From Bacillota bacterium (GTDB lineage: Bacteria > Bacillota > DSM-12270 > Thermacetogeniales > Thermacetogeniaceae): DNA of 64,000 nt. The position numbers and the translations under genes are program-made. The notes under the pieces were generated by a model, which had not been told where the DNA came from, ran no database searches, and worked only from the letters and a program-made list of their open reading frames with translations. The stretch is from the NCBI GenBank assembly GCA_013177945.1, contig JABLXW010000015.1, positions 55,395 to 119,394 of the forward strand, read 5' to 3'. Below, piece after piece: positions 27,034 through 56,375 of this stretch; position 1 is the stretch's first letter; the number at the start of each line of letters is the position of its first letter.

Positions 27034-27062
27034 AAACAAGGGGACGGTTTTCTTGTTTGCGC
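27034..27062 (+). repeat. REP-like GGGACGGTT repeat
   Basis: AAACAAGGGGACGGTTTTC followed by TTGTTTGCGC lies 5 bases after the aminotransferase stop. It is one copy of a dispersed imperfect palindrome whose ends (CAAACA and TGTTTG) can pair around a conserved GGGACGGTTCT centre. A second short copy at 27252-27276 ends in GACAA and TTGTC. The copies mark the boundary between the polysaccharide locus and the accessory island. Confidence 0.7.
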
Positions 27063-28494: not shown

Positions 28495-28662
28495 CAAACA
28501 AAGGGACGGTTCTCATGTTTGCGCCTGCAGGCAGGGGCAGGCGGCGAAACACGAGGTCGAAAAACCAAGCGGCAGACCTGTTGGTGTCCTGCACCAGGAT
28601 GGAAAAACCGGAGCGAGACAAAATCTTACATGATTGTCAGCAGGACCGCCCCCCTGTTTTGG
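28495..28662 (+). repeat. REP/RAYT-derived element (diverged copy)
   Basis: It begins with ACAAAGGGACGGTTCTCATG at 28497 and closes with the inverted motif CAGGACCGCCCCCCTG near 28640-28655. Inside, the order of short motifs (CTGCAGGCAGGGGCAGG, GAAACACGAGG, GACCTGTTGGTGTCCTGCAC, GGATGGAAAAACCGGAGC) matches the longer elements at 50459 and 52259. Internal ORFs are chance products of the repeat. The part before it (28345-28494) contains only a frameshifted coding scrap. Confidence 0.6.
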
Positions 28663-29591: not shown

Positions 29592-29811
29592 ACAAACAAA
29601 GGGACGGTTCTCATGTTTGCGCCTGCAAGCAAGGGCAGGTGCAGAGAAGGGCAGGCGGCGAAACACGAAGTCGAAAAATCAAGCGGCAGACCTGTTGGTG
29701 TCCTGCACCAGGATGGAAAAACCGGAGCGGGACAAAATTCTTGCATGATTCTCAGCAGGACCGCTCCACTGTTTTGGCAGACAGCAGGACCGTTTCCCTG
29801 TTTTCCTGGAC
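29592..29811 (+). repeat. REP/RAYT-derived element (diverged copy)
   Basis: CAAACAAAGGGACGGTTCTC at 29593 starts it. The inner motifs GACCTGTTGGTGTCCTGCAC and GGATGGAAAAACCGGAGC follow, and two closing inverted motifs (CAGCAGGACCGCTCCACTG at about 29754 and CAGCAGGACCGTTTCCCTG at about 29782) end it. It runs directly into the Rpn-family C-terminal scrap. Confidence 0.6.
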
Positions 29812-29902
29812 CGGACCGGGTGCTGGACCATCTGTTTGCCGCCGGCTCCCTGGAAGAAGCCCGGAACATCATCTGGGAGAAGCTGAGCAGGTTCATTCAG
29901 TA
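29812..29902 (+). pseudogene. Rpn-family nuclease/transposase, C-terminal scrap
   Basis: The last 30 codons of an Rpn-type protein remain: RVLDHLFAAGSLEEARNIIW followed by EKLSRFIQ and a stop. The same end occurs at 31563 and 41934. Here the rest of the gene is replaced by the REP/RAYT element, and the stop codon directly precedes the second 75-bp repeat. Confidence 0.75.
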
Positions 29903-29977
29903 ACCTATGGGCGAACGGGGAATGGAATGTTATATGAGCCTTGAGAGGTTCTTAATTGAGCGTGCCCTGCTTTTCCG
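29903..29977 (+). repeat. 75-bp direct repeat, copy 2
   Basis: Identical to 28270-28344 over all 75 bases. It starts directly after the stop codon of the Rpn scrap. The following 200 bases up to hicB2 hold no gene I can support, although two frames are open. Confidence 0.8.
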
Positions 29978-30612: not shown

Positions 30613-31125
30613 TCTTAGAAAAAAAGAATTTGGAAGCCAATTAACTCTGACACAAAAAATCGCTTCAAAAAACTAATCCCGGCGGCAATGATTGTGATCC
30701 CATTTTGGTTCATTGCCGTTATTCTCTGGCAAATCACAAGAAAGCTCTTCTATCTACCGATTTTCCGCATTAACCAAATTTTAATCTAAACTTCCTAAAA
30801 AGAGACAGTTTTTGGAAGTTTGAAGTTTTGTGAAAACTGGCGGCTTTATCTTTAAAGCCTTAAGAATTTGGCATTAAAGGAGAAACATTACCAATCTGCT
30901 GCACAATCTGGCCATTGACCGTCAAAGTCACGCGTCAAGTGGAGATCGGAGCATTTTCAGGGCATCTCTGCCGGAGGTAGCTAATTTTTCTCTTTGACAG
31001 ACCTTATTGAATATCATGTTGAACCGCAATCGTACGTACAAAAGAACTTTAACGAGTCAGCCGGTTATACGAGAAGCACCGGCGGAAGATATTACCGGTG
31101 GCCGTGTTCGGCTACGACCGGGCGC
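30613..31125. other. Intergenic region, gene-poor
   Basis: AT-rich. A 33-codon hydrophobic frame (30688-30789, MIVIPFWFIAVILWQITRK) could encode one membrane helix, but it has no ribosome site. GAAGTTTGAAGTTTTG near 30815 is a short internal repeat. From about 31000 the sequence grades into the N-terminal edge of the Rpn-family remnant. No RNA gene or promoter is assigned. Confidence 0.3.
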
Positions 31126-31563
31126 ATGCTGGCCCGGATGAAGCTGGACCCGGCTCGGATGGAGTTGCTGGCCGCTTTTTTCGAGACCTACCTGAAGCTG
31201 AACCGCGAGGAAGAAGAACAGCTTTACCGGGAATTGGGTAAAATAGACAAAAAAGAGGTTGATGCCATTATGCAAATAACCACCAGCTGGCATGAAAAAG
31301 GCCGTGCGGAGGGCCTTGCGCAAGGCCGCGCAGAAGGCCGTGCGGAGGGCCTTGTGGAAGGTAAAATTAAAGCAAAGCAGGAGGTCATATGCAGGTACCT
31401 GGCCCGCAGGTTTGGAGCGGATTCTGCCGCCATACAGGAAAAGGTGCCGCAACTGACCGACATGGATGCGCTGGACCGGGTGCTGGACCAGCTGTTTGCC
31501 GCCGGCTCCCTGGAAGAAGCCCGGAACATCATCTGGGAGGAGCTGAGCAGGTTCATTCAGTAA
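31126..31563 (+). pseudogene. Rpn-family recombination-promoting nuclease, N-truncated
   Basis: The frame keeps the C-terminal half of an Rpn/PDDEXK-type protein: MLARMKLDPARMELLAAFFE, TYLKLNREEEEQLYREL and IMQITTSWHEKGRAEGLAQG. Short repeats (GRAEGLAQGRAEGRAEGLVE) and a DUF4351-like end to SRFIQ follow. The N-terminal nuclease domain with its catalytic acid residues is absent. A nearly identical 400-bp copy lies at 41520-41934. The frame stays open upstream to 30994, but that part does not look like the family. In intact proteins the GRAEG repeats form a coiled region. Confidence 0.75.
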
Positions 31564-31886
31564 GTGTATCTTTCGATTATTCCGACCCAACCTTCTCAGC
31601 GCTATGCTTTTAAACCCCTCGCAGCTTGTTTCATCCCGAAAAAGCTGATGTGGACCTCCTCCTTGTGGTTCGACCATTCACGATCTTGCTTGCCGCTCGA
31701 TGACCCCCGAACTCAAGGAGATCTACAAAAAAATAGTGGCGTCGCACCGCGCTCATCGCCGGAAGATTTACAGCTTGATCAAACGACCTGTGCTATAATG
31801 GTGGCAAAAAAAGAGTGCCGGTCAGCCGAAGCTTTAATGCATCGTGAACTGAAAAAAGAAACAGAAAAACAGGAGGGTTTTGCGTC
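31564..31886. other. Leader region of hicBA copy 3
   Basis: The first 85 bases repeat at 41935-42020 together with the Rpn fragment, so the duplicated unit runs past that gene. An extended -10 promoter is listed separately at 31791. The rest holds no ORF I can support. Confidence 0.4.
31791..31799 (+). promoter_or_regulatory. Extended -10 promoter for hicBA copy 3
   Basis: TGCTATAAT (31791-31799) combines a consensus TATAAT with the upstream TG of an extended -10 element. No matching -35 at 17 bases is clear; extended -10 promoters can do without one. It lies about 90 bases before hicB3 ATG 31887. Confidence 0.45.
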
Positions 31887-33148: not shown

Positions 33149-33805
33149 CAAGTCAACCTCCAATCTGTCTGCTTATTCCGGCAGTGCTTCAGTTATCATT
33201 ACCGTATGTATGGGGCTTTCCGGTCATACCACGTTAGAGCAGTTTTATTCTGTAGCGGTTTCCACCGCGGTGCAACTCTGGGATTTCCTGCCTGAATTGT
33301 ACCATTTCCTCAAACAGACGGCAATATACGCCTTCAAAGGCTGTCACCTCCGGGGGCCAAGCTGCTGTTGAAAGGTAGCCGGGGCTATGTGGCATATGTG
33401 GTGTCTAATGTAATGAAAGCAAGCTTCCGGAGATCTTCAACTGCAGGGTGGCACCTCATGCAGGAGTTTTTGGGAAGTGGTAAATATGAATTAAAGTTGG
33501 CGGAATAACACCAGGGCAAACAAAGGGACGGTTCTCATGTTTGCACAAGCAGACAAGGGTAAGTGATGAAACACGGAATCACAAAAAATATAAAAAATGT
33601 TAAGTGGTAGACCTGTTAGTGTTCTGCACCAGATGGAAAAACCGGAGCGGGATAAAAAGCGGGATAAAATCCTGCAGAAAAATCAAGGTGATAGAGGGGA
33701 GCAGCCTTAGACAGATTTCGAGGATAATCTTTTCGGTAAGCTGTTGCCATAACCACTTACTGGGTTTATAATAGCGTACAGAAAGAACTGCTTGGAGGGT
33801 ATGAA
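33149..33805. other. Intergenic region with repeats and a small minus-strand ORF
   Basis: A 37-codon minus-strand frame (33234-33347, ending in HRGGNRYRIKLL) may be a protein tail. Bases 33415-33487 repeat 28971-29046. From 33517 to about 33715 lies a REP/RAYT-derived element: CAAACAAAGGGACGGTTCTC, GACCTGTTAGTGTTCTGCAC, then GATAGAGGGGAGCAGCC with the RAYT tail motif. The closing inverted motif is missing. The vapBC promoter follows. Confidence 0.5.
33744..33772 (+). promoter_or_regulatory. Sigma-A promoter of vapBC
   Basis: TTGCCA (33744-33749) and TATAAT (33767-33772) are separated by exactly 17 bases, a near-consensus vegetative promoter. The vapB start codon at 33806 lies 34 bases after the -10 box, with GGAGGG at 33794-33799 as ribosome site. 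Confidence 0.75.
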
Positions 33806-35102: not shown

Positions 35103-35158
35103 CAAACAGAGGGACGGTTCTCATGGGCACAAACAGAGGGACGGTTCTCATGTTTGCG
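35103..35158 (+). repeat. Tandem pair of REP-like repeats
   Basis: Two copies of CAAACAGAGGGACGGTTCTC lie 25 bases apart, the second one complete with ATGTTTGCGCAAGCAG. They separate the relBE promoter from the Rpn-family fragment. Similar double copies occur at 41452 and 50431. Confidence 0.75.
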
Positions 35159-35189
35159 CAAGCAGTCAAGGGTAAGTGACGAGAACCGG

Positions 35190-35515: not shown

Positions 35516-35742
35516 TTTCAAACACCAGAAGGGGATGTATCTGGGCTGGTGCCAAGACGGGAAAGGTGAATAGAGGAGAGGCAGTCATGTAGTCATGTAG
35601 CACAGTTTTGGCTGCTTTTTTTATTTTTTTCTTCGGATGTAAGCCAGATGTAGGCAGGATTTTTCTTTTCCTGAAGGATTTGGAGGATAACTGTCGAATT
35701 ATACCAAAAAGAGGTAAATATTGCTGTAGGTGAGTGGAAGAT

Positions 35743-35946
35743 ATGTTAGTAGGAAAGAGCTCGTTTTATCGGGCTTCTCCTTTGATGTTTGAACTTTATG
35801 AGAATCTCATAAGTGAGTTTGAAAATGATGAGAGATACTCAGGTTTTAAGGACCATGCTCGACCTACTGCAGACAATTATCCTCAGATGGCAGGAACCTT
35901 GTATCGTCATTTCCCAGCTCATTTTTATAAAGCGCAGGATTTATAA
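35743..35946 (+). CDS. N-terminal piece of the RT fusion protein
   Basis: The first open part encodes MLVGKSSFYRASPLMFELYE, NLISEFENDERYSGFKDHAR and PTADNYPQMAGTLYRHFPAH, then runs to TAA 35944. The following frame continues smoothly with DFINSYQKKYGDRASICEQE and into the methyltransferase-like motif, which shows that one base is missing near 35940. No family is recognised for this leader on its own. The DNA before it (35516-35742) has no gene. Confidence 0.5.
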   Translation: MLVGKSSFYRASPLMFELYENLISEFENDERYSGFKDHARPTADNYPQMAGTLYRHFPAHFYKAQDL

Positions 35947-36014
35947 ACTCCTACCAGAAAAAGTATGGTGATAGAGCGTCTATTTGTGAGCAGGAGAGTG
36001 TCGTTGTAGTAGAC

Positions 36015-37841
36015 GTGGGAGCTGGGGTAGGAACTTTTAGCTTAGCTTTAATGGATTTAGTAATGCAGGAAAAAGCAAAAGGCGCTGATGTTTGTGAGAA
36101 ATTTTATTTGATCCTGATCGAACCCAATGTGTTATATCACGAAGTAGCCAATGAATTATTAAAACAATGTGCGCAAGGGTCAAATCTACAGGTTAAATGG
36201 ACGATAATTGCTGGAAAGTTTCCTGATGAACCATGTCTAAGTGAAGTATTGGAAAGAGTGGCTGGGTATGATTCTAAATTTGTGATAATTGCCATGAGTA
36301 ATCTGTGGAACTGGCTAGAAGATGGAAAAAGTCTCCTCGATATTTTTTTGCCGTGGCGGCGAAAGACGGAAGCAGAAACAGTATATGATAGAGCGTGTAA
36401 TTTCTTAAAAGAGTTTGCGGAGAATACTCCGGCGTTGCAGGTTGCATTATTATCAGTCGAAACTAAGGAGCCAAAGCTTCGCAAGAAACTGGATAAATTT
36501 TACAAAAGGTTAAAGCAGGCTTCGCAGGATATTTATATCTTGAAGGGCCCAGACACAAATTTTATAAGATACGAGAACTTCCCAAGATCTTATTATAGAG
36601 AAGTGAAAACGAAGATTGAGCACGTGAATAGCTATAATGCTGCCTTTGCAGTTTTTGGTTTGATTGTGAACAAAATGAGCGAGCTAGAAAATTTAAAAAG
36701 GGCGTATTTTAAGAGCCGCCAGGCATTGCGATGGGAGTTTCCTTGTGATGAAGTTGAAATCAAACTGTTTGAACAAGATCTCGAACACAACCTGAAGCAA
36801 CTGGGAAAAAGGATCCTTACCGGTTACAATTTTGGGGAATTTCTACTGGAGTATGAAGTGCCGAAAAATGATAAAGAGACAAGGCCAAGGGTTATGGACA
36901 GTTTAAGTGATAGTATAGTTGGGGCCGCGTTTTTAGATGTTGTGGGTAGAGGTATAGACAGGAACTTTTGTAGGACGAGTTATGGTAACAGGATCAATGA
37001 AAAAATTGATAGTGAATATATGTATAAGTATTTTTGGCATTCGTATCGAAATTTCATGTATAAACCGAAAAGTTGGTTCGCAAAAAACGGTTTTAATTTT
37101 TTTGTGAAGATGGATATCAAGTCTTTTTATCCTTCGGTAAAACAGGAGAAATTAATTGAAAAGCTTATCAGGTTATTACCTGCAAAAGAACCGAGAGTAT
37201 TAAACTTGTTAAATTCTATGATTAAAAGATCAATTTTTGGTTCTCCTGAAGGTTGTGGTATACCCCAGGGGCCGATCTGTAGCGGTTTTTTAGCGAATTG
37301 TTATTTAGACGAATTTGACCGCGAAATGGAAGCCAAATTGGGACCAAATGGATATCGGAGATATGTGGATGATATGATTATCTACACACATGATGAGGAA
37401 AGTTGTAAAGAATCGATCAAGTATGTGTCGGAAAAATTATGTGAGTTAGGGTTAAAAAATCATACAGGTAGAAAGCTGAAAGAGGGAACGATTGAAGATT
37501 ATTTATCATTGATTGAGCGTGATCGGGAAGTGGATGATTTCCAGAAGGATTTATCGAGAATCTTGAGGGGGTTGTATAGTTTAGATTGGAATAACTACCG
37601 CGAGTTTATAAGAAAACCTGATGAGTTCGTCAGGTTATATAGTGAGTGCCTTCGGACTATTGGAGTTATTATCAACCCTGAGTGGTTGCGGAGAAAGCTT
37701 TTGCTTGGAAAAGGCTTGAGTGCGGCTTTATCCTTTGTGTCCAGGTATTTTAGTTCTCAAATGTACCGCGTAAATTTCCTCATCCTGCCAAATTACTCAA
37801 TGCAAATGAGTGGGCAAAGGATTTTAAGTCGAAAAATTTGA
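36015..37841 (+). CDS. Methyltransferase-like domain fused to reverse transcriptase (main ORF)
   Basis: The longest piece, 609 residues from GTG 36015; similarity extends upstream of that codon in the same frame. It starts inside the glycine-rich DVGAGVGTF loop of a class I SAM-binding fold, with FYLILIEPN as the acidic second motif and FVIIAMSNLWNWL further on. The second half is a reverse transcriptase: FVKMDIKSFYPSV (motif A with the first Asp), GCGIPQGPICSGFLANCYL then DEFD (motif B), and RRYVDDMIIY (motif C, YVDD at 37362-37373). The SGFLANCYLDEFD form resembles defence-associated (UG/Abi) RTs more than retrons or group II introns. The last 30 residues, after 37765, are probably frameshift noise. 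Confidence 0.75.
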   Translation: MGAGVGTFSLALMDLVMQEKAKGADVCEKFYLILIEPNVLYHEVANELLKQCAQGSNLQVKWTIIAGKFPDEPCLSEVLERVAGYDSKFVIIAMSNLWNWLEDGKSLLDIFLPWRRKTEAETVYDRACNFLKEFAENTPALQVALLSVETKEPKLRKKLDKFYKRLKQASQDIYILKGPDTNFIRYENFPRSYYREVKTKIEHVNSYNAAFAVFGLIVNKMSELENLKRAYFKSRQALRWEFPCDEVEIKLFEQDLEHNLKQLGKRILTGYNFGEFLLEYEVPKNDKETRPRVMDSLSDSIVGAAFLDVVGRGIDRNFCRTSYGNRINEKIDSEYMYKYFWHSYRNFMYKPKSWFAKNGFNFFVKMDIKSFYPSVKQEKLIEKLIRLLPAKEPRVLNLLNSMIKRSIFGSPEGCGIPQGPICSGFLANCYLDEFDREMEAKLGPNGYRRYVDDMIIYTHDEESCKESIKYVSEKLCELGLKNHTGRKLKEGTIEDYLSLIERDREVDDFQKDLSRILRGLYSLDWNNYREFIRKPDEFVRLYSECLRTIGVIINPEWLRRKLLLGKGLSAALSFVSRYFSSQMYRVNFLILPNYSMQMSGQRILSRKI

Positions 37842-38437
37842 AACTAGTAAAAAAACTCAAGCGGTTAAAAGAGGAATTGGAAAATAGGCTACAACGGCTT
37901 TACGACTGTTACGGAGATCTTTCAACAACTGGGCTTGATGCCGATATTAGAAAAAAGATAACGGCGAAATACAGATTTTACACATACAGAGCAAGTATCT
38001 TGTCTTCGCCTGGAATAATCCCCGTAATAAAGAAAATTTTACCGTCCCCGTGGTTATATAATATAACTGTTTTGCGGAGTTACCCGGCATTGATCCCGGA
38101 CCTTGTTCGAATATTAGAGAATGAGAGTTCTGAATACCTAAAGTATGTAGCTATTTGGGCATTGGGTGAAATGAAGCCAAACTGTTCCAATGCTGTCTCA
38201 GCTTTAACCAAAATTTTGTTTTTTGATGAAAGTTTAGGCATCAAGCTGATGGCATCTCAGTCACTGCTAAAGATTGATTACTGGGATGGATTTGATTGGG
38301 AGAGGTTAGAGCAAGAGATTTTGAAAATGCAGAAAATACCCCGCTTATTGAAAAATCTAATTCTTATCTGGGGCCGCAGTGGTTCTGATAAATTAAAGTT
38401 GAATTGGATGAGAGCGTTAGAGAAGATGAAAATGTAG
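37838..38437 (+). CDS. HEAT-like helical C-terminal piece of the RT fusion
   Basis: A helical, basic protein piece of about 199 residues: LVKKLKRLKEELENRLQRLY, then YNITVLRSYPALIPDLVRIL, SEYLKYVAIWALGEMKPNCS and AVSALTKILFF. SSEYLKYVAIWALGEM is a typical HEAT/armadillo-like repeat. Its TTG overlaps the RT stop, but the same frame is open upstream to about 37765 and there reads KFPHPAKLLNANEWAKDF, so it is best seen as the continuation of the RT protein. UG/Abi RTs are known to carry alpha-helical repeat tails, which fits. A third base loss near 38415 leads to the last 50 residues, ending at TAG 38577. Confidence 0.6.
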   Translation: MKLVKKLKRLKEELENRLQRLYDCYGDLSTTGLDADIRKKITAKYRFYTYRASILSSPGIIPVIKKILPSPWLYNITVLRSYPALIPDLVRILENESSEYLKYVAIWALGEMKPNCSNAVSALTKILFFDESLGIKLMASQSLLKIDYWDGFDWERLEQEILKMQKIPRLLKNLILIWGRSGSDKLKLNWMRALEKMKM

Positions 38438-41451: not shown

Positions 41452-41509
41452 GCAAACAGGGGGACGGTTCTCTTGTGGGCAAACAAGGGGACGGTTCTCA
41501 TGTTTGCGC
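41452..41509 (+). repeat. Double REP-like repeat
   Basis: CAAACAGGGGGACGGTTCTC and CAAACAAGGGGACGGTTCTC stand 27 bases apart, ending in ATGTTTGCGCCTGCAG. The second copy runs into the Rpn-family remnant, exactly as at 29592, where the element lies before an Rpn tail. Confidence 0.75.
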
Positions 41510-41519
41510 CTGCAGTTTC

Positions 41520-41934
41520 GGGACCCGGCGCGCATGGAGTTGCTGGCCGCTTTTTTCGAGACCTACCTGAAGCTGAACCGCGAGGAAGAACAGCTTTACC
41601 GGGAATTGGGTAAAATGGACAAAAAAGAGGTTGATGCCATTATGCAAATAACCACCAGCTGGCATGAAAAAGGCCGTGCGGAGGGCCTTGCGCAAGGCCG
41701 CGCAGAAGGCCGCGCGGAGGGCCTTGTGGAAGGTAAAATTAAAGCAAAGCAGGAGGTCATATGCAGGTACCTGGCCCCCAGGTTTGGAGCGGATTCTGCC
41801 GCCATACAGGAAAAGGTGCCGCAACTGACCGACATGGATGCGCTGGACCGGGTGCTGGACCAGCTGTTTGCCGCCGGCTCCCTGGAAGAAGCCCGGAACA
41901 TCATTGGGAGGAGCTGAGCAGGTTCATTCAGTAA
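41520..41934 (+). pseudogene. Rpn-family nuclease, N-truncated copy 2, frameshifted
   Basis: Nearly identical to 31148-31563: RDPARMELLAAFFETYLKLN, the GRAEGLAQGRAEGRAEGLVE repeats and DRVLDQLFAAGSLEEARNII. One base is missing at about 41905 (ATCATTGGGAGG against ATCATCTGGGAGG), so the frame ends early in IGRS. The duplication continues for about 85 bases past the stop. The nuclease domain is absent, as in the other copy. Confidence 0.75.
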
Positions 41935-42020
41935 GTGTATCTTTCGATTATTCCGACCCAACCTTCTCAGCGCTATGCTTTTAAACCCCTCGCAGCTTGT
42001 TTCATCCCGAAAAAGCTAAT

Positions 42021-42716
42021 GCGGATCCTCCTCCTTGTGGTTCGATCATCCACAACACTCTTCTGTGGTTCGAAAATTGCCGCCCGCTGGACGGCGGGGC
42101 TCATCGTGATGAACGGGGAGGACCGCTTCACCCTGTTCAATAATCTCCTGATGTGCTGCCTTTCTTCCTTCACGAAGTCAGCGGACATCAAGGATTTTCT
42201 CCGAGGCCGACATCGTTAACTGGGGCTACCTTATCCACCAGAGAAGGGCAAACAAGGGGAAACAAGGGGACGGTTCTCATGTTTGCGCCGGCAGACAAGG
42301 GCAAGGAGCATGTCCTAAACGTCGTGGAATTTCGGTGACGCCCTTTTTGCCTTTTGCGGTAGAGAAAAATTGACTCCTTGCGATTAGAGGCAAAAAATTT
42401 ACTGCAGGCGGTTTGATAGAAGCGGCCCAATTTGCGCCGGAATAATAACAGGGCTCAAGGTGCCAAGATGTCCTCAAGCGCGAAGCAGAAGAGCTTGGTA
42501 GATATTGAGATCTACCAGAGGGGCGCCCCCATCATCTGTCTGCTTATGGAGAGGGCCTGTGCTGAGGCAGGCCGTGGCGCCGGTGGAGACCTCGAGACAC
42601 AGGAGACCGGGGAAAAGGCCGGTTTTCCTTGCCGGTTTCCTTATCTCCTGGTAGAATAACACCAGATAGTGCTTTGGAAGTATATTTCGTTGCAGGAGGC
42701 CAAAGGGGATTTCATA
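42021..42716. other. Intergenic region with REP repeats, SDR scrap and promoter
   Basis: Bases 42123-42177 repeat 41200-41257, part of the SDR gene, in the same orientation. A REP pair lies at 42248-42289 (AACAAGGGGAAACAAGGGGA, then CGGTTCTCATGTTTGCG). The promoter of the DUF433 gene is at 42629-42657. No intact gene is seen. Confidence 0.5.
42629..42657 (+). promoter_or_regulatory. Sigma-A promoter with operator-like palindrome
   Basis: TTGCCG (42629-42634) and TAGAAT (42652-42657) have a 17-base spacer. The -10 box sits inside CTGGTAGAATAACACCAG, an inverted repeat (CTGGT and ACCAG) that could be the operator of the antitoxin. The start of the DUF433 gene lies 60 bases downstream. The same layout is seen at 28856. 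Confidence 0.6.
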
Positions 42717-45141: not shown

Positions 45142-45390
45142 TTGATCTGGAGAACGAGAAAAATTTTTTTCGCGCTTCAAGAAGTCGTCGAAGCCGTTGA
45201 GGCATTGCCGCAAGATGATCAGTTGTTGTTAATCGAAATTATTCGTCGGCGCCTGATCCAGCATCGGCGTGCAGAACTGGCAGCAGAGGTGGCTGAAGCC
45301 CGCCGGGCTTATCAGAAAGCAAGGTATTGCTTGACGTTGTTTGAGGATAAAACGGGGACAGGAGAAAGGTGGGTTTATGGACGGCAGTAA
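45142..45390 (+). CDS. Putative antitoxin-like small protein, fused tail
   Basis: TTG 45142 lies 7 bases after AAGGAGG and opens 82 residues. EVVEAVEALPQDDQLLLIEI, then IRRRLIQHRRAELAAEVAEA and RRAYQK resemble small helical antitoxins (addiction-module component type) that accompany RelE-like toxins. The last 20 residues (LTLFEDKTGTGERWVYGRQ) do not fit and overlap the next gene, so the original C-terminus was probably lost. No toxin gene follows. Confidence 0.5.
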   Translation: MIWRTRKIFFALQEVVEAVEALPQDDQLLLIEIIRRRLIQHRRAELAAEVAEARRAYQKARYCLTLFEDKTGTGERWVYGRQ

Positions 45391-47104
45391 TCTCTCATGG
45401 TTAACAGAGGAATATATTCGTCATCTGGCGGACGGGCGAAGTTTTGAGCGCGGGATGAATTACTACGCCGGCGGAAACATTCGCCATCCCCTCCGGCAAG
45501 GGATGGAACTGCGCGGTGAGTGTTATGGGTCACAGTCGAAGCCGTACAGGGTCAGGGTTGTATTGGATAATAACGGCATCCGGGAGGCATCCTGTACCTG
45601 CCCCCGGGGAGGGGTTTGCAAACATATCATTGCCCTCTTGCTAACCTATGTTCATGAACCGGATTCTTTTGAGGTTTTAACGTCACTGGACGCCATGCTT
45701 GCCCGGCTCAGCAGGGAAGAACTCATTTCGCTGATCGTTGAGATGCTTCAGCGGGAGCCGTCTTTGTCGGCTGTAGTTGATCTGGCTGTGGCTACGGCCG
45801 GCGGGCAGTCTCTGGATGTGGCGGCATTGAGCCGAGAAGTGAAGAGAGCGTTGAGCCTGGATGACCCCTTTGAAATAGAGATGGGCCTGCGGAACATCTT
45901 GCGAACGGCCGAGCGCCTCGCCCGGAAAGAAGACTGGCCGGGGGCAGGTGCGGTCTACCAAACGGTGCTTGACGCTCTGACAGAGATTTATGGCAATGAG
46001 TTGTTGAGCATGGACGATGATGGAGCCATCGCCGCCATTGCCTGCGAATGTGTGGAGGGATTGAGCGAGTGCCTTAATCGAGGTGATTGCGACCGCGACA
46101 CGCGGCAGGCCTGGTTGATGTCTCTTATGAAGGCCGAACTGGCTGACATAGAAATGGGTGGTGTCGATTTTGCCGGTGAAGCCCTGGACGCCATATTTGA
46201 GCATGCCGGCGAGCAGGATTGGGAGCTGCTTCGGGAATGCGTATGTGAACATATCCCGAAAAGCGGCGAATGGGGGCGGGAGAAGCTGGTAGGAATACTG
46301 GTAGCCTGGGAGGAAAAGAACGGCCGCTATGAGCAGGCCAGGCGGTTAATCCAGGAAATGGGAACCGCGGAACAGCGGGCTTTTCTTATGGTCAGAGATG
46401 GCGAGCCTGGAAGAGCGGTAGCCCTGGCGAAGCAGCACATGAGGGATAAGCCGGGGATTATCATGCGCCTGGCCGGTGCGCTGGCAGACGCCGGAGCCGG
46501 GGACCACGCCGTGGCACTGTTAACCCAACTGGCCGGTTCGAAGGATTCCCATCCCGGTTACCTGGAATGGCTGGCGAACTACCACAGCAGGAATGGAGAA
46601 TTGGACGAGGCATTAAAATGGCAGCGCCGGCTTTTTGAGCAGCATCCTACCCTTGCGTCATTTAGAAAATTACGCCAGATTTGTGAAGAGCTCGGAGTTT
46701 GGCCGCGGGTGCGCAACGAGATATTGAAAGTGCTGGAGCGCAAAAAGCAGGCAGACATTCTGATTGAGATAGCCCTGGACGAGGGGGATGTAGCGCGGGC
46801 GCTGGAACTGGTGCCCGGGATTCCTCCGGGGGACTGGCACGACTATCGAGGTAAAGTAGCCAGGGCCGCCGAAGAAAAGCATCCCCGGGAGGCCATAAAG
46901 CTGTACCGGGAAATGGCGGAAGCGGCTATTGCACTTCGCCAGCGCAAACACTACAGCTATGCTGCGGGGCTGCTGTGCCGCGTCAGGAACCTCTATGAAC
47001 GCCTGGGTGAACAGGCGGACTGGAAAAACTACATCACCGCCCTGAAGAATAGATATGCCCGTTTCTCCGCTCTGCGTGAGGAATTAAAAAAAGCCGGCTT
47101 ATAA
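45377..47104 (+). CDS. SWIM zinc-finger protein
   Basis: A 575-residue cytoplasmic protein. The SWIM domain near residues 70-95 is complete: ASCTCPRGGVCKHIIALLLT gives the CxC...CxH zinc ligands. The rest is helical and TPR-like (EDWPGAGAVYQTVLDALTEI; AVALLTQLAGS; LEWLANYHSRNGELDEALKW), ending in a conserved-looking KNYITALKNRYARFSALREE. ATG 45377 follows AAAGGTGG; the longer frame from 45341 reads through the upstream antitoxin-like gene. SWIM-repeat proteins of this layout occur in many bacteria with unknown function. Codon use is normal, and it appears intact. Confidence 0.85.
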   Translation: MDGSNLSWLTEEYIRHLADGRSFERGMNYYAGGNIRHPLRQGMELRGECYGSQSKPYRVRVVLDNNGIREASCTCPRGGVCKHIIALLLTYVHEPDSFEVLTSLDAMLARLSREELISLIVEMLQREPSLSAVVDLAVATAGGQSLDVAALSREVKRALSLDDPFEIEMGLRNILRTAERLARKEDWPGAGAVYQTVLDALTEIYGNELLSMDDDGAIAAIACECVEGLSECLNRGDCDRDTRQAWLMSLMKAELADIEMGGVDFAGEALDAIFEHAGEQDWELLRECVCEHIPKSGEWGREKLVGILVAWEEKNGRYEQARRLIQEMGTAEQRAFLMVRDGEPGRAVALAKQHMRDKPGIIMRLAGALADAGAGDHAVALLTQLAGSKDSHPGYLEWLANYHSRNGELDEALKWQRRLFEQHPTLASFRKLRQICEELGVWPRVRNEILKVLERKKQADILIEIALDEGDVARALELVPGIPPGDWHDYRGKVARAAEEKHPREAIKLYREMAEAAIALRQRKHYSYAAGLLCRVRNLYERLGEQADWKNYITALKNRYARFSALREELKKAGL

Positions 47105-50357: not shown

Positions 50358-50458
50358 TCTCCTCACCTCCTGTCGGGCTAGTAGGTTAGACACAGAAAAA
50401 AGGAAAAAAGTTCCCGGAACAAACAAGGAACAAACAAGGGGACGGTTCTCATGTTTTA

Positions 50459-50704
50459 CAAACAAGGGGACGGTTCTCATGTTTGCGCAAGCAGGCAAGG
50501 GTAAGTGACGAAACACGAAATCAAAAAAGTTAAGTGGTAGACCTGTTAGTGTTCTGCACCAGATGGAAAAACCGGAGCTATAAAATCCTGCAGAAAAATC
50601 AAGGTGATAGAGGGGAGCAGCCTCAGACAGATTGCGAAAATAACGGGGCTGACTGTTGAAATAAAGCCTGAAGGAGGCAAACAGCAGAACCGTCCCCCTG
50701 TTTT
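50459..50704 (+). repeat. 245-bp REP/RAYT-derived element, copy 1
   Basis: It begins with CAAACAAGGGGACGGTTCTC and ends with the inverted motif CAGAACCGTCCCCCTGTTTT, so GGGGACGGTTCT stands at both ends in opposite orientation. The last 110 bases read IKVIEGSSLRQIAKITGLTV, like the C-terminal helix-turn-helix of REP-associated tyrosine transposases (RAYT). I take it as an internally deleted, non-autonomous derivative. An extra REP copy lies just before it at 50431. Copy 2 at 52259 differs at only 4 positions. Confidence 0.8.
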
Positions 50705-50924
50705 GCCCCCGAAGCAGAGCAGGCTGCCCTGGCCCGGCAGCTGGCCGAAATCGCCGCCGAACAGTCAAGGGATGAACCTTGCCGGGAGGCAGGAAATCTG
50801 GAAATAAGCAGAGAAATAACCGATAGAGTTTTTGTCTGGGAGGAGGACATGAGAGCCCGCGTTCGATCTTTTGTTATGGGTGTGGATACCTGGAGAAATC
50901 ATTCAAATGAATTGAGGTGCAAGC
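50705..50924. other. Region upstream of the SEC-C gene
   Basis: One frame here is open from the repeat to about 50939 and reads EAEQAALARQLAEIAAEQSR and EISREITDRVFVWEEDMRAR. It has coding character but no start and probably is the tail of a destroyed gene. A promoter for the SEC-C gene is not evident. Confidence 0.35.
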
Positions 50925-52304
50925 ATGAAGGTCTTTGAAGTGGAGAGGAACGACATCTGCCCCTGCGGCAGCGGGCGCAAGTTTAAAAAGTGCTGCCAGG
51001 AGAGGGTGGAGGAGGCGATTCGCCGGATCGGCCGGGTGATCGGCCTGGGAAACTGTACGGCCGGGGGGCGGGAGATTGTTGAAACCCTCGGATTTGTGTG
51101 CGGGATGCGGGCTGAGGAAGAGGGGCACATGCCGGACCCGGAGACGCTTGGCAGACTGCTGCAGGATGCCTGGGATGAGGAAGAACGGCTGCGCGACTCC
51201 GGGGATGAGGTCGGTTTAAGAGTTCTTTCGGACCGGCTTCAGGGGCTTCTGGGTGAGAAGCCGTATTTGAGGCATCTCAGGGTTCCGGTATGGCAGTTCG
51301 ATTTTGATGAAGACTTTGACATTATGGAATACCTCGACGGAACCTGGGGATATCTGCTTGCGACAAGATCGGTGGAGTTGTTCCGTCTGTCGCTTCTTTA
51401 CGATGACTGCACCGAAGACGAGCTCAAATTGCTGCTCACAGGGCTGAGCTGGCTGGTGGCGGACGACATGCGAGAGCTGTTCTGGCGGTCTGTTCTTTCC
51501 AGGACGAGGAATGACCTGCTGTCGGCTGCCAGAGAGATGAGTGAAATATCTAAAAAATACCAGGATGAGAGTCAGCACGAGTTTTACGCAAAGATACAAA
51601 CCATTTTCAGCAAATATCCAGTATACAAAAAAATGCTGTCGGAAAGCCTGGCGGAAGAGATTAAACCTGCAGTAGCTGCCGTTGTACAGGGAAAAATAAA
51701 GGTGGACGTTCCCCTCTACTCCGTCCTGGGGGGGATTTACGCAACAATCTCCGGCTTTATCGAAAGTTTTGAAAACCTGCTTTTACGCCGCAGGGTACCC
51801 CCTGCGCTGCTGTCGCTGCTGGAGGAAGCGCTTCTGGGCGCCGGTGGGTACGAATTTTTCCTTCCGGAAGTCCTCAATTCTCTCAATGAGAAAATTCAGG
51901 AAATCCAGGACAGCGAGCTGGGAAAATCACTTTGCAATCTGATGCTTTACCTTTCTTTGATGTTTGACGATAACGGGTATGCGCTTCTCGAATACCTTTA
52001 TCTGAGGAATGCCTGCACGTTCCTGGCCGGGCTCCCCCTGGCTCTAACGGAGGCCGGGGTGGAGTTTAAAGACGTCAAAGATCTGTGCGACGAGAACCTG
52101 GTTGAAAAGTACGCCGCTTACCTGGAGTCCCGGAATCTGGCGGAAGAAGCCGGACATGTGCGGGATGTCTACCGGTCCTTTGGTGTACGGGCAAGGGAAA
52201 AGGCTGCAGCCGGGCAGAAAGATCTGGTTAGCTTCGCCCGGTCGCTTGTGGAAGAAGGCAAACAAGGGGACGGTTCTCATGTTTGCGCAAGCAGGCAAGG
52301 GTAA
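50925..52304 (+). CDS. SEC-C metal-binding motif protein
   Basis: A 459-residue protein with a zinc-binding SEC-C motif at its N-terminus, NDICPCGSGRKFKKCCQERV (the motif otherwise known from SecA tails). The remainder is acidic and helical without recognised domains (RLLQDAWDEEERLRDSG; PVWQFDFDEDFDIMEYLDGT; LYLSLMFDDNGYALLEYLYL). ATG 50925 has GAGGTGC just upstream. Its last 15 or so residues (KQGDGSHVCASRQG) are encoded by the REP repeat at 52259, so the natural C-terminus has been replaced by repeat-encoded residues. The gene lies between two near-identical 245-bp direct repeats. Confidence 0.8.
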   Translation: MKVFEVERNDICPCGSGRKFKKCCQERVEEAIRRIGRVIGLGNCTAGGREIVETLGFVCGMRAEEEGHMPDPETLGRLLQDAWDEEERLRDSGDEVGLRVLSDRLQGLLGEKPYLRHLRVPVWQFDFDEDFDIMEYLDGTWGYLLATRSVELFRLSLLYDDCTEDELKLLLTGLSWLVADDMRELFWRSVLSRTRNDLLSAAREMSEISKKYQDESQHEFYAKIQTIFSKYPVYKKMLSESLAEEIKPAVAAVVQGKIKVDVPLYSVLGGIYATISGFIESFENLLLRRRVPPALLSLLEEALLGAGGYEFFLPEVLNSLNEKIQEIQDSELGKSLCNLMLYLSLMFDDNGYALLEYLYLRNACTFLAGLPLALTEAGVEFKDVKDLCDENLVEKYAAYLESRNLAEEAGHVRDVYRSFGVRAREKAAAGQKDLVSFARSLVEEGKQGDGSHVCASRQG

Positions 52305-52504
52305 GTGACGAAACACGAAATCAAAAAAGTTAAGTGGTAGACCTGTTAGTGTTCTGCACCAGATGGAAAAACCGGAGCTATAAAATCCTGCAGAAAAATC
52401 AAGGTGATAGAGGGGAGCAGCCTCAGACAGATTGCGAGGATAACGGGGCTGACTGTTAAAATAGAGCCTGAAGGAGGCAAACAGCAGAACCGTCCCCCTG
52501 TTTG
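52259..52504 (+). repeat. 245-bp REP/RAYT-derived element, copy 2
   Basis: Matches copy 1 at 50459-50704 base for base with an offset of exactly 1800 and only 4 differences, all in the last 70 bases. It carries the same RAYT-like tail (VIEGSSLRQIARITGLTVKI) and inverted terminal motifs. It overlaps the 3' end of the SEC-C gene. The two copies are in direct orientation and could recombine to delete the gene. Confidence 0.85.
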
Positions 52505-52549
52505 TGCCCCTGTTTGTGTGTGCCGGTTCTTTTATAACACTTTTCTGCT

Positions 52550-52615
52550 GTGCGGGATACTCCGTTACTCGGGGGGAGAAGTAACAATGGTTACTTTGTC
52601 CGGAGCATCCCGCAC
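52550..52615. other. Nested inverted repeat / structured RNA candidate
   Basis: The outer stem GTGCGGGATACTCCG (52550-52564) pairs with CGGAGCATCCCGCAC (52601-52615) in 14 of 15 positions. Inside it AAGTAAC (52579-52585) pairs with GTTACTT (52590-52596) around an AATG loop. Neither stem is followed by a T-run on the plus strand. It is not part of the REP element that ends at 52504. Function unknown. Confidence 0.55.
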
Positions 52616-52662
52616 GCTGCACTTTTTTCATTTCATATAGCAAAAGGCATGCCAGGGATATT

Positions 52663-52707
52663 AAAAAAAGTTACCCTTCACTTCGATTTGCAGACCGAAA
52701 TGAAGGG
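52663..52707 (-). terminator. Rho-independent terminator of the GntP-family permease gene
   Basis: On the minus strand, CCCTTCATTTCG (52707-52696) pairs with CGAAGTGAAGGG (52685-52674) in 11 of 12 positions, followed by TAACTTTTTTT. It lies about 65 bases past the stop of the permease gene (52774). Confidence 0.75.
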
Positions 52708-52773
52708 CAGAAAAGAAAGTGGGGGAAATTTGTAATAGCACGTGCACCAGCTTTCGGGCCTTGATTTAGTAAA

Positions 52774-54144
52774 TTATACTATTCCAAATATAGAAACGAT
52801 CGCAATTACGATAAAAACTGTTAAGGTTTTCATGACCGTGATTGCGAAAATATCGGGATAGGACTCCCTGTGCGTTAAGCCGCAAATTGCCAGCAGGGTG
52901 ATCACCGCACCGTTATGAGGCAGGGTATCGAAACCACCGCAGGCCATTGCAGCTATTCTGTGCAGCAACTCAGGGCTGACTCCCACCCGGTGGGCCCATT
53001 CAAGATACTGTTTTCCCATGATTTCAAGTGCGATGCTGAGACCGCCGGAGCCGGACCCTGTGATGCCTGCTAAAGAGGTCACCGCGATCGCTTCCGAAAC
53101 AAGCGGAGTGCCTTTAATACCTAAAACTGCAGAAGCAATTGCTTTGAAGCCCGGAAGAGAAGCGATCACGCTCCCGTAGCCTACCTCAGACGACGTATTC
53201 ATGATGGCCAGCAGCGACCCGATTGTACCTGTGTTGAGGCTTTTTACAACAGAATCTTTAAAGTATTTCCAGTTGAAAGTGATCGCCAGCAAAATTCCTA
53301 TAACAATGGCCAGGATTAAGGCCCAAATTCCGGCTACGCTGCTCAGCTGCACCCCCGGGTAATTGCTTAAAATCGCCGGGTCCCACCTGCTAATCCATTT
53401 GGTGAAGAAAAAGTTGCCTCCCAGAACTGCCAGCAGGGGTATGCACGAGATTGCAGCATTGGGCAGCCTGTCATCGTTTGAAGTTTCAGGTTCGTTAAGG
53501 GTATGCTTTCCATAGCCTTCCCCTTTTGCGATCGCTTTGCGCTTCCGGTATTCAAGCCACGCCATGCCTCCTGTAAAGAGGATGACTGCCCCAATCAGTC
53601 CGGTCCATGGTGCTGCGTAGGTGGTAGTTCCAAAGTATTTGGTGGGGATAATGTTTTGTATCTGCGGCGATCCGGGCAGGGCGTCCATTGCGAACGTAAA
53701 AGAACCCAAGGCAATGCAGGCGGGGATGAGTCTTTTAGGAATGTTTGCTTCCTTAAAAAGGGCCGCGGCGAATGGGTACACTGCAAAGGCCACAACGAAT
53801 AAGCTGACACCGCCGTAGACCAGAACCGCACATGACAACACCACCGCTAATATGGCACGTTCTGGCCCCAACTTTTGAATTAAAGCCTTGGCGATTGAGC
53901 GGGCCGCGCCGCTGTCTTCCATGACTTTTCCGAAAACTGCACCCAGCATAAAGATCGGGAAGAAGCTTTTCGCGTAGCCCACCGCTTTTGCCATAAATAA
54001 CTCGGTATAGGTTGGCAGCAAACTTGCCCCGGAAAATAAAGCCGCGAGCAGGGCGCAAACCGGGGCAAACAGTATCACGGAAAAACCGCGGTATGCCAGG
54101 AAAATCAGCAGTGCGAGACTTAAGATGATGCCTAAGATAGCCAC
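52774..54144 (-). CDS. GntP-family permease (hydroxybutyrate/gluconate type)
   Basis: A 456-residue membrane transporter with about 12-14 hydrophobic segments. ILFAPVCALLAALFSG, SFFPIFMLGAVFGKVMEDSG, FTFAMDALPGSPQIQNIIPT and SGSGGLSIALEIMGKQYLEW are typical of the GntP family, which imports gluconate, fructuronate or D-beta-hydroxybutyrate with protons. The GTG/ATG start at 54144 follows GGAGGGTC. It is divergent from the sigma-54 activator and lies beside CoA-transferase and crotonase genes, so a short hydroxy acid is a more likely substrate than a sugar acid; this is inference. A good terminator follows. Confidence 0.85.
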   Translation of the reverse strand: MAILGIILSLALLIFLAYRGFSVILFAPVCALLAALFSGASLLPTYTELFMAKAVGYAKSFFPIFMLGAVFGKVMEDSGAARSIAKALIQKLGPERAILAVVLSCAVLVYGGVSLFVVAFAVYPFAAALFKEANIPKRLIPACIALGSFTFAMDALPGSPQIQNIIPTKYFGTTTYAAPWTGLIGAVILFTGGMAWLEYRKRKAIAKGEGYGKHTLNEPETSNDDRLPNAAISCIPLLAVLGGNFFFTKWISRWDPAILSNYPGVQLSSVAGIWALILAIVIGILLAITFNWKYFKDSVVKSLNTGTIGSLLAIMNTSSEVGYGSVIASLPGFKAIASAVLGIKGTPLVSEAIAVTSLAGITGSGSGGLSIALEIMGKQYLEWAHRVGVSPELLHRIAAMACGGFDTLPHNGAVITLLAICGLTHRESYPDIFAITVMKTLTVFIVIAIVSIFGIV

Positions 54145-54689
54145 AATTTTGACCCTCCTTCGACCTGTCTTTTTTTAAGTCTTGTCGTGTGCCTGTTTCG
54201 TTTTGACTGGTAGGTTAGCCCGGCAGCAGCAGATTAATTCTGTGGTTAAAACAACGGTTAAAACAACAAACCGGCCGGCTTCCGAACTCCTCTTTTGATC
54301 ATTTGTTTCCGGTCATGAAAGGCCACCTCCCGGTTAGGCGGTATAAGAAGCAGCAACCTACTGGGATGTGCTCAGCAAGTTTTATGCCAGGGTTTATTAC
54401 CCGGGAACGTAATGGGAAGGAAATGCTAAGGATTCGTGGAAAATTGTGGATTCAAACATATTGATCAAGAAAATTGGTGAGCAAGATTGCTTGAAAAGGA
54501 TTTTCAAAAGAGGATTTTTCATGAAGTTTCCCTTTAGGGTTTAACGCGTGCCAGTATTTGTGACGGCGAATAACTGAAATGTTATAATTTTTTAGGATAA
54601 TAGTCACAGCGTAAAATTTTAATTGCAAGTTTTTGCAATCGTTTATTCACCATTGCACCTGTTTTTTAATGTTTTTGATAATTGATATA
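54145..54689. other. Divergent control region
   Basis: The region between the permease and the regulator. It is AT-rich in the part near the regulator. ATTGCAA (54622-54628) and TTGCAAT (54633-54639) form an inverted repeat with a 4-base gap, a candidate activator site. No ORF is supported. A minus-strand promoter for the permease could not be assigned; GGCACACGAC near 54190 resembles only half of a sigma-54 site. Confidence 0.45.
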
Positions 54690-54705
54690 TGGCACGTAAA
54701 TTGCA
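54690..54705 (+). promoter_or_regulatory. Sigma-54 (RpoN) promoter
   Basis: TGGCACGTAAATTGCA matches the -24/-12 consensus TGGCAC-N5-TTGCA in every position. It faces the regulator gene (ATG 54801). Two direct repeats of GTGAATTGCAGC follow at about 54711 and 54725, perhaps regulator-binding sites. The layout suggests that the activator controls its own gene, and perhaps others in the module. Confidence 0.75.
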
Positions 54706-54800
54706 ACCACGTGAATTGCAGCTTGTGAATTGCAGCCTTGAAATTGTGAAAATAAGCACGAGAACTTGCTCTAAAGTTATTCATAGGGGGTGGGGGGATC

Positions 54801-56375
54801 ATGAATGATACCGAGAGAAAAGAAAATTCTAAACAAAAATTAGTTGCTAAAAAAGACAACTGTATTCGCCGGGAAAAAATTGTGCATTTGCATGATTATT
54901 GTAAGAAAATCACCGGACATGATTCTCACGAGTTAACAAAAAAAATAGAAGAGGTCTTGGCTGAGTTCAGGCAAACAATCCATTTGTATGAAGGAACTCT
55001 GGAAAACTTGTATGACGGAATATTTATTGCCGATCGCAAAGGTTTTGCTGTTTTTTGCAATCGGGCCTTCGAAAAACTTACCGGACTTTCTAGAGAACAG
55101 ATAATAAACATGAACGTAAGTGAAATGGAGGAGAAGGGATTTATTTCGGAGTCGATTGTGAAAAAAGTTCTTAATACCGGCAGGCCCTGCACGTTGACAA
55201 TACAATATCCGACGGGCCGGGATATTGTTGTCTCAGCCGTTCCATATTTTATCGATGGAAAATTGTCTTACGTTGTTTGCAGTTTGCGGGACCTTACGGA
55301 GTTAATTGCGCTGAAGGCGGAGCTGGAAGAGGTCAGGAGGCAGCTGGATATTTCAAAGCTGCAGCTGGACAACATCAAGCTGGAAAAGATTAAAAACAGT
55401 CAGGAATTTATATTTCGCAGTTCGACCATGGAAAAGGTCTTATCGCTGGCTTTAAAGGTGGGTAGAGTTGATACTACTGTGCTTATATTAGGTGAATCAG
55501 GTGTGGGCAAGGATCTGCTGGCTAAATTTATCCATTCGGTTTCAGAGCGGAGCGAAGGCCCTTTTGTCAAGATTTGCTGCGAGGCCATACCGGAGACCCT
55601 CCTGGAATCAGAATTGTTCGGCTACGAAAAAGGCGCCTTTACAGGAGCCAAAGGGAATGGGAAAATGGGGCTTTTCGAGCTGGCCAATAAAGGCACCTTA
55701 TTTCTTGACGAGATCGGAGAGCTGCCTGTGAGGCTTCAAACGAAGCTGTTGAACGTGCTCCAGGATCGCAAAATTATGCGCCTTGGGGGAACAAAGCCGA
55801 TCGACATTAACGTGAGAATTATAGCGGCAACAAATCGGAACCTGGAGAAAATGGTTGCCGAAGGGAAATTCCGGGAGGACCTGTTTTTCAGGCTTAATGT
55901 AGTTCCGATCACCATCCCCCCGCTCAGAGAGCGCCGCAATGATATACTGCCGCTGATAAACCATTTTCTGGCGCAGTATAATAAAAAGTACGATTTAAAG
56001 AAAAAACTTTCGGCAGCCGCAATTGACAGGTTGTTGGCTTATAATTGGCCGGGTAATGTCCGGGAGCTCCAGAACGTAATTGAAAGGCTGGTTGTTTTAA
56101 GTTCTACGGACCTGATTGACGTGGACGAACTCCCTAAAGAAATTCTTGAGAAAGGCTCCAGCAGTAAGTTGCAACAGGAAACACCTGCAAAAGAGGAGGA
56201 TATTTTTACGGCCCGTTTTTCAAGCTATCGGAATCTCCATGACTTTTTATACGAAGCAGAAAAGTCCATGATATCCTGGGCGCTCGAGAAGACGGACAAT
56301 CAGCGTGATGCAGCTGCAATTTTAGGAATTGACGCCTCTACTCTGACGCGCAAGAAGCAGCGGCTTGGGATCTGA
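54801..56375 (+). CDS. PAS-domain sigma-54-dependent transcriptional activator
   Basis: A 524-residue activator. After a charged N-terminus, a PAS domain spans roughly residues 60-170 (YEGTLENLYDGIFIADRKGF; NRAFEKLTGLSREQI) and probably senses a small ligand. A coiled segment (LKAELEEVRRQLDISKLQLD) leads to the AAA+ domain with Walker A GESGVGKDLLAKFIH, the sigma-54 contact loop GAFTGAKGNG, Walker B LFLDEIGELP, and RLNVVPITIPPLRERRNDI. The C-terminus is a Fis-type helix-turn-helix (NQRDAAAILGIDASTLTRKK). ATG 54801 follows GGGGTGGGG. It lies between the permease and the acyl-CoA genes and most likely controls both. Confidence 0.92.
   Translation: MNDTERKENSKQKLVAKKDNCIRREKIVHLHDYCKKITGHDSHELTKKIEEVLAEFRQTIHLYEGTLENLYDGIFIADRKGFAVFCNRAFEKLTGLSREQIINMNVSEMEEKGFISESIVKKVLNTGRPCTLTIQYPTGRDIVVSAVPYFIDGKLSYVVCSLRDLTELIALKAELEEVRRQLDISKLQLDNIKLEKIKNSQEFIFRSSTMEKVLSLALKVGRVDTTVLILGESGVGKDLLAKFIHSVSERSEGPFVKICCEAIPETLLESELFGYEKGAFTGAKGNGKMGLFELANKGTLFLDEIGELPVRLQTKLLNVLQDRKIMRLGGTKPIDINVRIIAATNRNLEKMVAEGKFREDLFFRLNVVPITIPPLRERRNDILPLINHFLAQYNKKYDLKKKLSAAAIDRLLAYNWPGNVRELQNVIERLVVLSSTDLIDVDELPKEILEKGSSSKLQQETPAKEEDIFTARFSSYRNLHDFLYEAEKSMISWALEKTDNQRDAAAILGIDASTLTRKKQRLGI

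Follow-up and report, generated by a model that had tools for sequence, protein, structure and literature searches.

Two near-identical direct repeats that bracket a SEC-C gene in the stretch of DNA analysed here (the window; 64,000 nucleotides, C15:55395-119394 of a 55-contig draft genome, G000, of 2,712,212 bases) are MITEs of a TIR-flanked RAYT, and as such are real and well explained. On the fuller account, which we consider probable, they are MITEs of a TIRYT-type RAYT element, recognised in trans by their hairpins, that landed beside a SEC-C gene already resident there. What is new is a hairpin rule for the element ends, together with recurrent MITE pairs that bracket genes.

The repeats and a complete element on another contig

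The original prediction placed the repeats at 50459-50704 and 52259-52504 with an offset of 1800 and four differences; coordinates and offset are exact, and the count becomes five differences in 246 positions (four over the first 245). The locus reads as follows:

45341..47104, + strand: SWIM-type gene, upstream of SEC-C in G000, G015, G004, and G001
50430..50456, + strand: extra partial left-end hairpin, in tandem before MITE 1 (27-nt repeat with the same sequence as the left end of MITE 1, 28 bp before it)
50459..50704, + strand: MITE 1 (left end of 29 bp, last ~200 bp of the transposase gene, right end)
50925..52304, + strand: SEC-C motif protein, 459 aa (PF02810, 37.7 bits vs. a cut-off of 20.4)
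52259..52504, + strand: MITE 2, 98.0% identical to MITE 1

The ends of both repeats are inverted hairpins, confirming that GGGGACGGTTCT stands at one end and its inverse at the other: it lies on the + strand at 50466 and 52266 and on the − strand at 50697 and 52497. Across the 2,712,212 bases of the genome it occurs exactly 20 times, and the same pattern read backwards not once. The partial end at 50430..50456 folds together with the next copy (z −3.9). The helix-turn-helix (HTH) tail VIEGSSLRQIA(K/R)ITGL is legible in one frame of each repeat, as predicted, but it is not a coding unit: on translation all three frames are interrupted by stops, and RAYT sequence downstream of GLTV is partly deleted in both copies. 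The repeats are therefore MITEs and the tail is a pseudogene remnant; with the frames broken, a role as a functional protein part is ruled out. In alignment, both repeats cover positions 13-41 and 662-905/906 of the RAYT element, with the stretch between missing. They share both ends with the autonomous element, carry an internal deletion, exist in several copies, and have zero coding capacity. With MITE 1 as query, 22 matches were found in the genome, 14 of them on contig C15. We give almost no credence to an assembly artefact, in which the second repeat would be a misjoin: the genome is a draft and the repeats are 98% identical, but five positions distinguish the copies, and another assembly (G001) likewise has several MITE copies together on a single contig, C25.

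That the repeats are non-autonomous RAYT derivatives is borne out by a single full-length RAYT gene on contig C7, which shares their ends and HTH tail and encodes 260 aa with a IEGSSLRQIARITGL tail (C-terminus ...IKEIEGSSLRQIARITGLTVHTVYKAVNKD, 260 residues). It is the single gene recovered from the genome with the PF01797 (Y1_Tnp) profile (68.3-69.8 bits vs. a cut-off of 23), and it is flanked by a left-end match, GCAAACAAGGGGACGGTTCTCTTGTTTGC, and a right-end match, GCAAACAGGAGAACCGTCCCGCTGTTTGG; the complete element spans ~0.9 kb and holds this one HUH/Y1 transposase gene. Its translation contains HLH in GNHLHLL as well as YIHQNP, i.e., the HUH and Y---NP motifs as defined in the available part of PMC6006769. 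A C-terminal HTH extension is present at residues 226-259 (HTH_7, HTH_23, and HTH_28, E 1.7e-4 to 2.7e-3, all under Pfam's curated cut-offs). The element ends are inverted (89% over 28 bp), and GGGGACGG agrees with the published TIR consensus GGGGWSAS at 7/8 positions. The gene scores under the curated cut-off of the NCBIfam model NF047646 (REP_Tyr_transpos; 77.7 vs. 80 bits), and the protein matches the IS200 model NF033573 weakly (19.7 against 55).

Placed by published motif descriptions, the C7 transposase would best fit the TIRYT branch (TIR-associated RAYT; HUH subclass 2.1). As excerpted, the papers on TIRYT/TIRtron (PMC3733652) and on TnpAREP subclass 2.1 (PMC6006769) describe what is also seen here: an HUH/Y1 transposase whose C-terminus carries an HTH, flanking inverted repeats in which a GGGG-rich motif (a probable one here) takes the place of GTAG REPs, and TIR copies dispersed in the genome. 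The same part of PMC6006769 groups RAYT group 1 (Bertels et al.) with TIRYT/subclass 2.1. Two differences from these accounts, as far as they are available, are that the copies here retain the 3′ end of the gene and that the ends here form hairpins whose loop is long and fixed and whose stem varies, whereas the papers describe TIRs, some of them self-complementary. IS200/IS605 elements likewise have a transposase of the Y1 superfamily and end hairpins; here, however, the IS200 match is weak and there is one full copy in the genome. The system also resembles REPIN/BIME in its small palindromic non-coding copies tied to one chromosomal RAYT gene. REPINs, however, consist of two inverted REPs with a GTAG/GTGG foot (PMC6006769, available part), while the copies here are 160-250 bp long with a transposase-gene remnant, and a GTAG foot is absent at the ends read.

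Across the shared 3′ part the SEC-C MITEs are 83-84% identical to the C7 element, which is therefore a relative and a possible enzyme source, not the direct parent. The same RAYT is found, at identical contig coordinates, in G007 and in a contig of Thermacetogenium sp. UBA5472, so the organism's family is probably Thermacetogeniaceae. Among the best 80 of 207 relatives, the closest RAYT (85% identical) lies in L145 (JAGUVT010000147.1), from a DeMMO MAG labelled Deltaproteobacteria, where either misbinning or transfer might account for it. One genome (G051) has 27 RAYT matches, many of them fragments. A search of plasmid sequences with the MITE gave no match, and the phage search gave one distant RAYT relative (28% identity).

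Other copies and gene-bracketing pairs

Further copies with other genes between them, for which the original prediction proposed a search, are present, e.g., around a HicB-like gene and an AbiEii gene. In addition to the SEC-C pair, the window contains:

27034..27061, + strand: solo left-end hairpin
28495..28660, + strand: shorter MITE, left member of the pair around the HicB-like gene
29593..29804, + strand: shorter MITE, right member of the HicB-like pair, 94.6% identical to 28495-28660
33517..33730, + strand: MITE without right end
35103..35182, + strand: two tandem left ends (35103-35158), rest lost
41453..41515, + strand: two tandem left ends (41453-41507), rest lost
42260..42305, + strand: left-end remnant

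Close pairs in the window are 28495/29593 (HicB-like), 33517/35130 (bracketing MazE-PIN plus a second gene pair), 41480/42260, and 50459/52259, all in direct orientation. Pair members long enough to compare are each other's closest or nearly closest relatives: the SEC-C MITEs share 98.0% identity, with the next closest copy (in G001) at 95.1%; a pair on contig C20 also shares 98.0%, with the next closest copy (again in G001) at 96.3%; and 28495 and 29593 share 94.6%, with 29593 at 94.9% to a shorter copy in G004. The simplest reading of these identities would be local duplication or conversion behind close pair members. The deletion join of the SEC-C MITEs recurs in full copies on C20 and in G001, and a second group of copies (28495, 29593, 8988 in G001, and those in G004 and G015) has the same left part and a further deletion before the right end. 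In G004 the site of 29593 is nearly empty, but ~254 bp are missing there instead of the MITE alone. Tandem partial left ends (35103-35158, 41453-41507, 50430-50486) precede three MITE copies, a layout that would arise if a left end already in place served as landing site for new copies.

A regulatory role, in which the copies would be fixed hairpins (REP-like terminators or mRNA stabilisers) that do not move, could be read from the several copies at or just past gene 3′ ends (SEC-C, AbiEii, the HicB-like operon). We consider it very unlikely, given that full MITEs include a piece of the transposase gene, have a deletion in common, and occupy positions that differ between sister genomes.

On C20 (positions 114542-117377, locus L025) the order is S1 (614 bp), MITE, AbiEii gene, MITE, S2. 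The 614-bp copies comprise the 3′ part of a deacetylase gene and the following ORF, and S2 is 99.5% identical to S1. Bases private to S2 stand at the left edge of that copy and one private to S1 at the right edge of the other, in each case adjoining a MITE end; at the left edge G001 matches S1. This pattern would fit a circle that entered the chromosome by a single crossover, as judged from 3-4 differences in a draft assembly.

The window around these copies is itself rearranged. Positions 25000-47000 form a mosaic of blocks, many 85-98% identical, that are reordered in G001, G002, G004, G011, and G015, with toxin-antitoxin genes and pieces of IS among them. The 3′ end of one gene, weakly DUF4351-like, is present in three partial copies (29813-29903, 31122-31572, 41521-41943) and resembles Rpn-type nucleases, and a DRT UG25/UG35-type reverse transcriptase extends across three ORFs at 35734-38437, apparently broken.

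All left ends found in the window lie on the + strand, where GC skew is positive, and the C20 and C7 copies lie on the − strand with negative skew; C5 is an exception, and 36-48 kb of C15 is mixed with skew close to zero. RAYT orientation matches the skew of the flanks at 63 of the best 80 of 207 loci. A preference for the lagging-strand template is expected of such enzymes, but at the same loci RAYT genes are no more biased than other ORFs (58/72 vs. 62/82; Fisher p 0.56), and MITE orientation in relatives is mixed; we draw no conclusion on orientation.

The SEC-C gene and its neighbours

The SEC-C ORF has one SEC-C motif and zero other confident domains. As a candidate for a known defence protein it was rejected, model matches being limited to the SEC-C motif, sub-threshold hits aside. 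Homologues are 81-83% identical in G015, G004, and G011 and 61% identical in G001. The SWIM-type gene upstream (SWIM_XIII match weak) has 95-96% nucleotide identity to its counterparts in G015, G004, and G001, and its order and strand relative to SEC-C agree in all four genomes, while in these three sisters no MITEs adjoin SEC-C. The interval between the two genes varies. In G015 SEC-C directly follows the SWIM-type gene (aligned blocks 64 bp apart); in G004 ~1.7 kb separates them and contains what reads, judging by its sequence, as a MazE-like/PIN-like gene pair; in G000 they are 3.8 kb apart, with MITE 1 and genes for an IS21-like transposase and a DUF6847 protein in the gap; and in G001 the distance is ~10 kb. 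Since SEC-C follows the same SWIM-type gene on the same strand in sisters where no MITE lies next to it, it appears ancestral at this place; from these comparisons, it looks like a long-standing resident and not cargo.

The downstream repeat has altered the gene. The last 15 codons and the stop of the SEC-C ORF come from MITE 2; nucleotide homology to G015, G004, and G001 ends at 52257, just 5′ of it, and the ETRTSHSI ending of the G015 and G004 proteins (...EEETRTSHSI or similar) is GKQGDGSHVCASRQG in G000. Comparison shows that MITE 2, at the SEC-C 3′ end, replaced the last codons of the gene. No clean empty site for either SEC-C MITE was found in the relatives, and the 52505-55000 interval to the right of MITE 2 has zero matches in 19 relatives. 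Because this interval is unmatched and G015 and G004 have a different sequence to the left of SEC-C, the comparison does not prove a simple insertion; as the relatives' sequence does not resume to the right of MITE 2, a deletion or rearrangement accompanied or followed insertion.

These arrangements bear on the proposal that the pair mobilises the gene as a unit, i.e., that the transposase treats the outermost two ends, the left one of MITE 1 and the right one of MITE 2, as a single pair and carries MITE-SEC-C-MITE along whole. Both MITEs are complete and directly oriented, and similar pairs bracket the HicB-like gene (28495/29593) and the AbiEii gene (C20), with pair identities of 98.0, 94.6, and 98.0% and, on C20, with MITE-AbiEii-MITE between two copies of host sequence. 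We nevertheless judge such a composite improbable, as SEC-C follows the SWIM-type gene in G015, G004, and G001 with no MITE adjoining it, its pair is without a flanking duplication, and zero further MITE-SEC-C-MITE units occur among 61 genomes. TIME-COMP composites are likewise genes bracketed by two MITEs (PMC13367494, available part), but TIMEs, as described there, derive from Tn3-family transposons with 5-bp target repeats; here the elements are Y1/HUH, movement of SEC-C as a unit is unsupported, and a TIME-COMP-like second unit around SEC-C was not found in the 61 genomes. For the AbiEii gene on C20, movement as a unit would be plausible from the sequence pattern; the equivalent for SEC-C is unsupported.

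A direct pair might also arise by RecA-type recombination, a circle carrying one MITE and the gene having recombined with a resident MITE in the absence of transposition, much like the origin proposed for MITESen1 pairs in the part of PMC13367494 available. All pairs are indeed directly oriented, and the differences beside MITE ends on C20 are those of a single crossover with a slightly different circle. For SEC-C, however, there is neither a duplication nor a second copy, and gene order is conserved; the C20 pattern consists of 3-4 differences that could be later mutation. We regard this origin as unlikely.

We return to MITEs that probably landed beside a resident gene. We infer that the C7 transposase, or a lost relative, would move the MITEs in trans as single strands after recognising their two end hairpins, and that the MITEs would have landed beside resident SEC-C in a region that gathers IS and toxin-antitoxin genes. 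One of the two may then have arisen locally from the other, or both may have been homogenised by conversion. Repeats that are nearly identical and flank a gene do not by themselves make it cargo, which corrects a tempting inference.

Hairpin ends across related RAYT loci

The ends were compared across the best 80 of 207 related RAYT loci, all from named genomes, by a core-based search of the flanks, which covers only ends that carry the core. With at least 100 bases of flank present for 79 (upstream) and 74 (downstream) of these 80, the core (at most one mismatch, within 250 bp of the gene) was found upstream of 51 and downstream of 41; as controls, the reversed core gave 0 and a wrong-strand search gave 2 and 5. 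The bases flanking the core are complementary to each other, forming a stem around a loop. Counted with the C7 element alongside the 80 loci and with register shifts of 0-2 permitted, stems of at least 5 bp occur in 36/48 distinct left ends (mean 10.4, maximum 19 in 2000 shuffles) and in 33/40 distinct right ends (shuffled mean 9.1, maximum 19). Stem pairs 4 to 7 each show at least four pair types (i.e., covariation), and among the 35 elements with both ends, the two ends of one element have 11.1/15 stem letters in common, compared with 6.6 between elements. As the stems covary and match within an element, the termini are hairpins in which the loop is fixed and the stem specific to the element. 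Left ends fold better than shuffles (z −3.1 for MITE 2, z −4.5 for the C7 element); for right ends the effect is weaker (z −2.0 and −1.6, respectively).

The available part of PMC6006769 places 20/26 TIRYTs in subclass 2.1 with a common TIR motif, GGGG[AT][CG]A[CG], and reports no REP-like structures for this subclass; the excerpted text of De Nocera et al. (2013; PMC3733652) describes some TIRs as self-complementary. The REP model in that part of PMC6006769 uses loops of 2-5 nt in its short hairpins and would, we infer, miss the hairpin ends found here. A literature text search with the core strings gave no transposon title among the matches listed, and literature searches on TIRYT, and on RAYT with group 1, inverted repeat, IS200, or Clostridium, found only PMC3733652 and PMC6006769.

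A broader proposal, which we hold to be doubtful, is that TIRYT-type RAYTs would recognise a hairpin with a free stem and an 11-12-nt loop that stays the same across phyla, that the ends would meet via loop-loop pairing, and that MITEs in direct pairs would be exchangeable borders that move toxin-antitoxin and defence genes as circles between relatives. On one strand, the loop of the left end is complementary to that of the right end, so the ends could find each other by such pairing; MITEs as circle-forming gene borders are suggested by the 614-bp duplication around MITE-AbiEii-MITE on C20.

The literature discusses RAYT transposases as domesticated enzymes. For the TIR-flanked branch, the searches in PMC6006769, in the part available, gave no REP-like end structure. 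The covarying hairpins are a concrete, testable candidate recognition signal for this branch, and the MITE pairs would be natural substrates.
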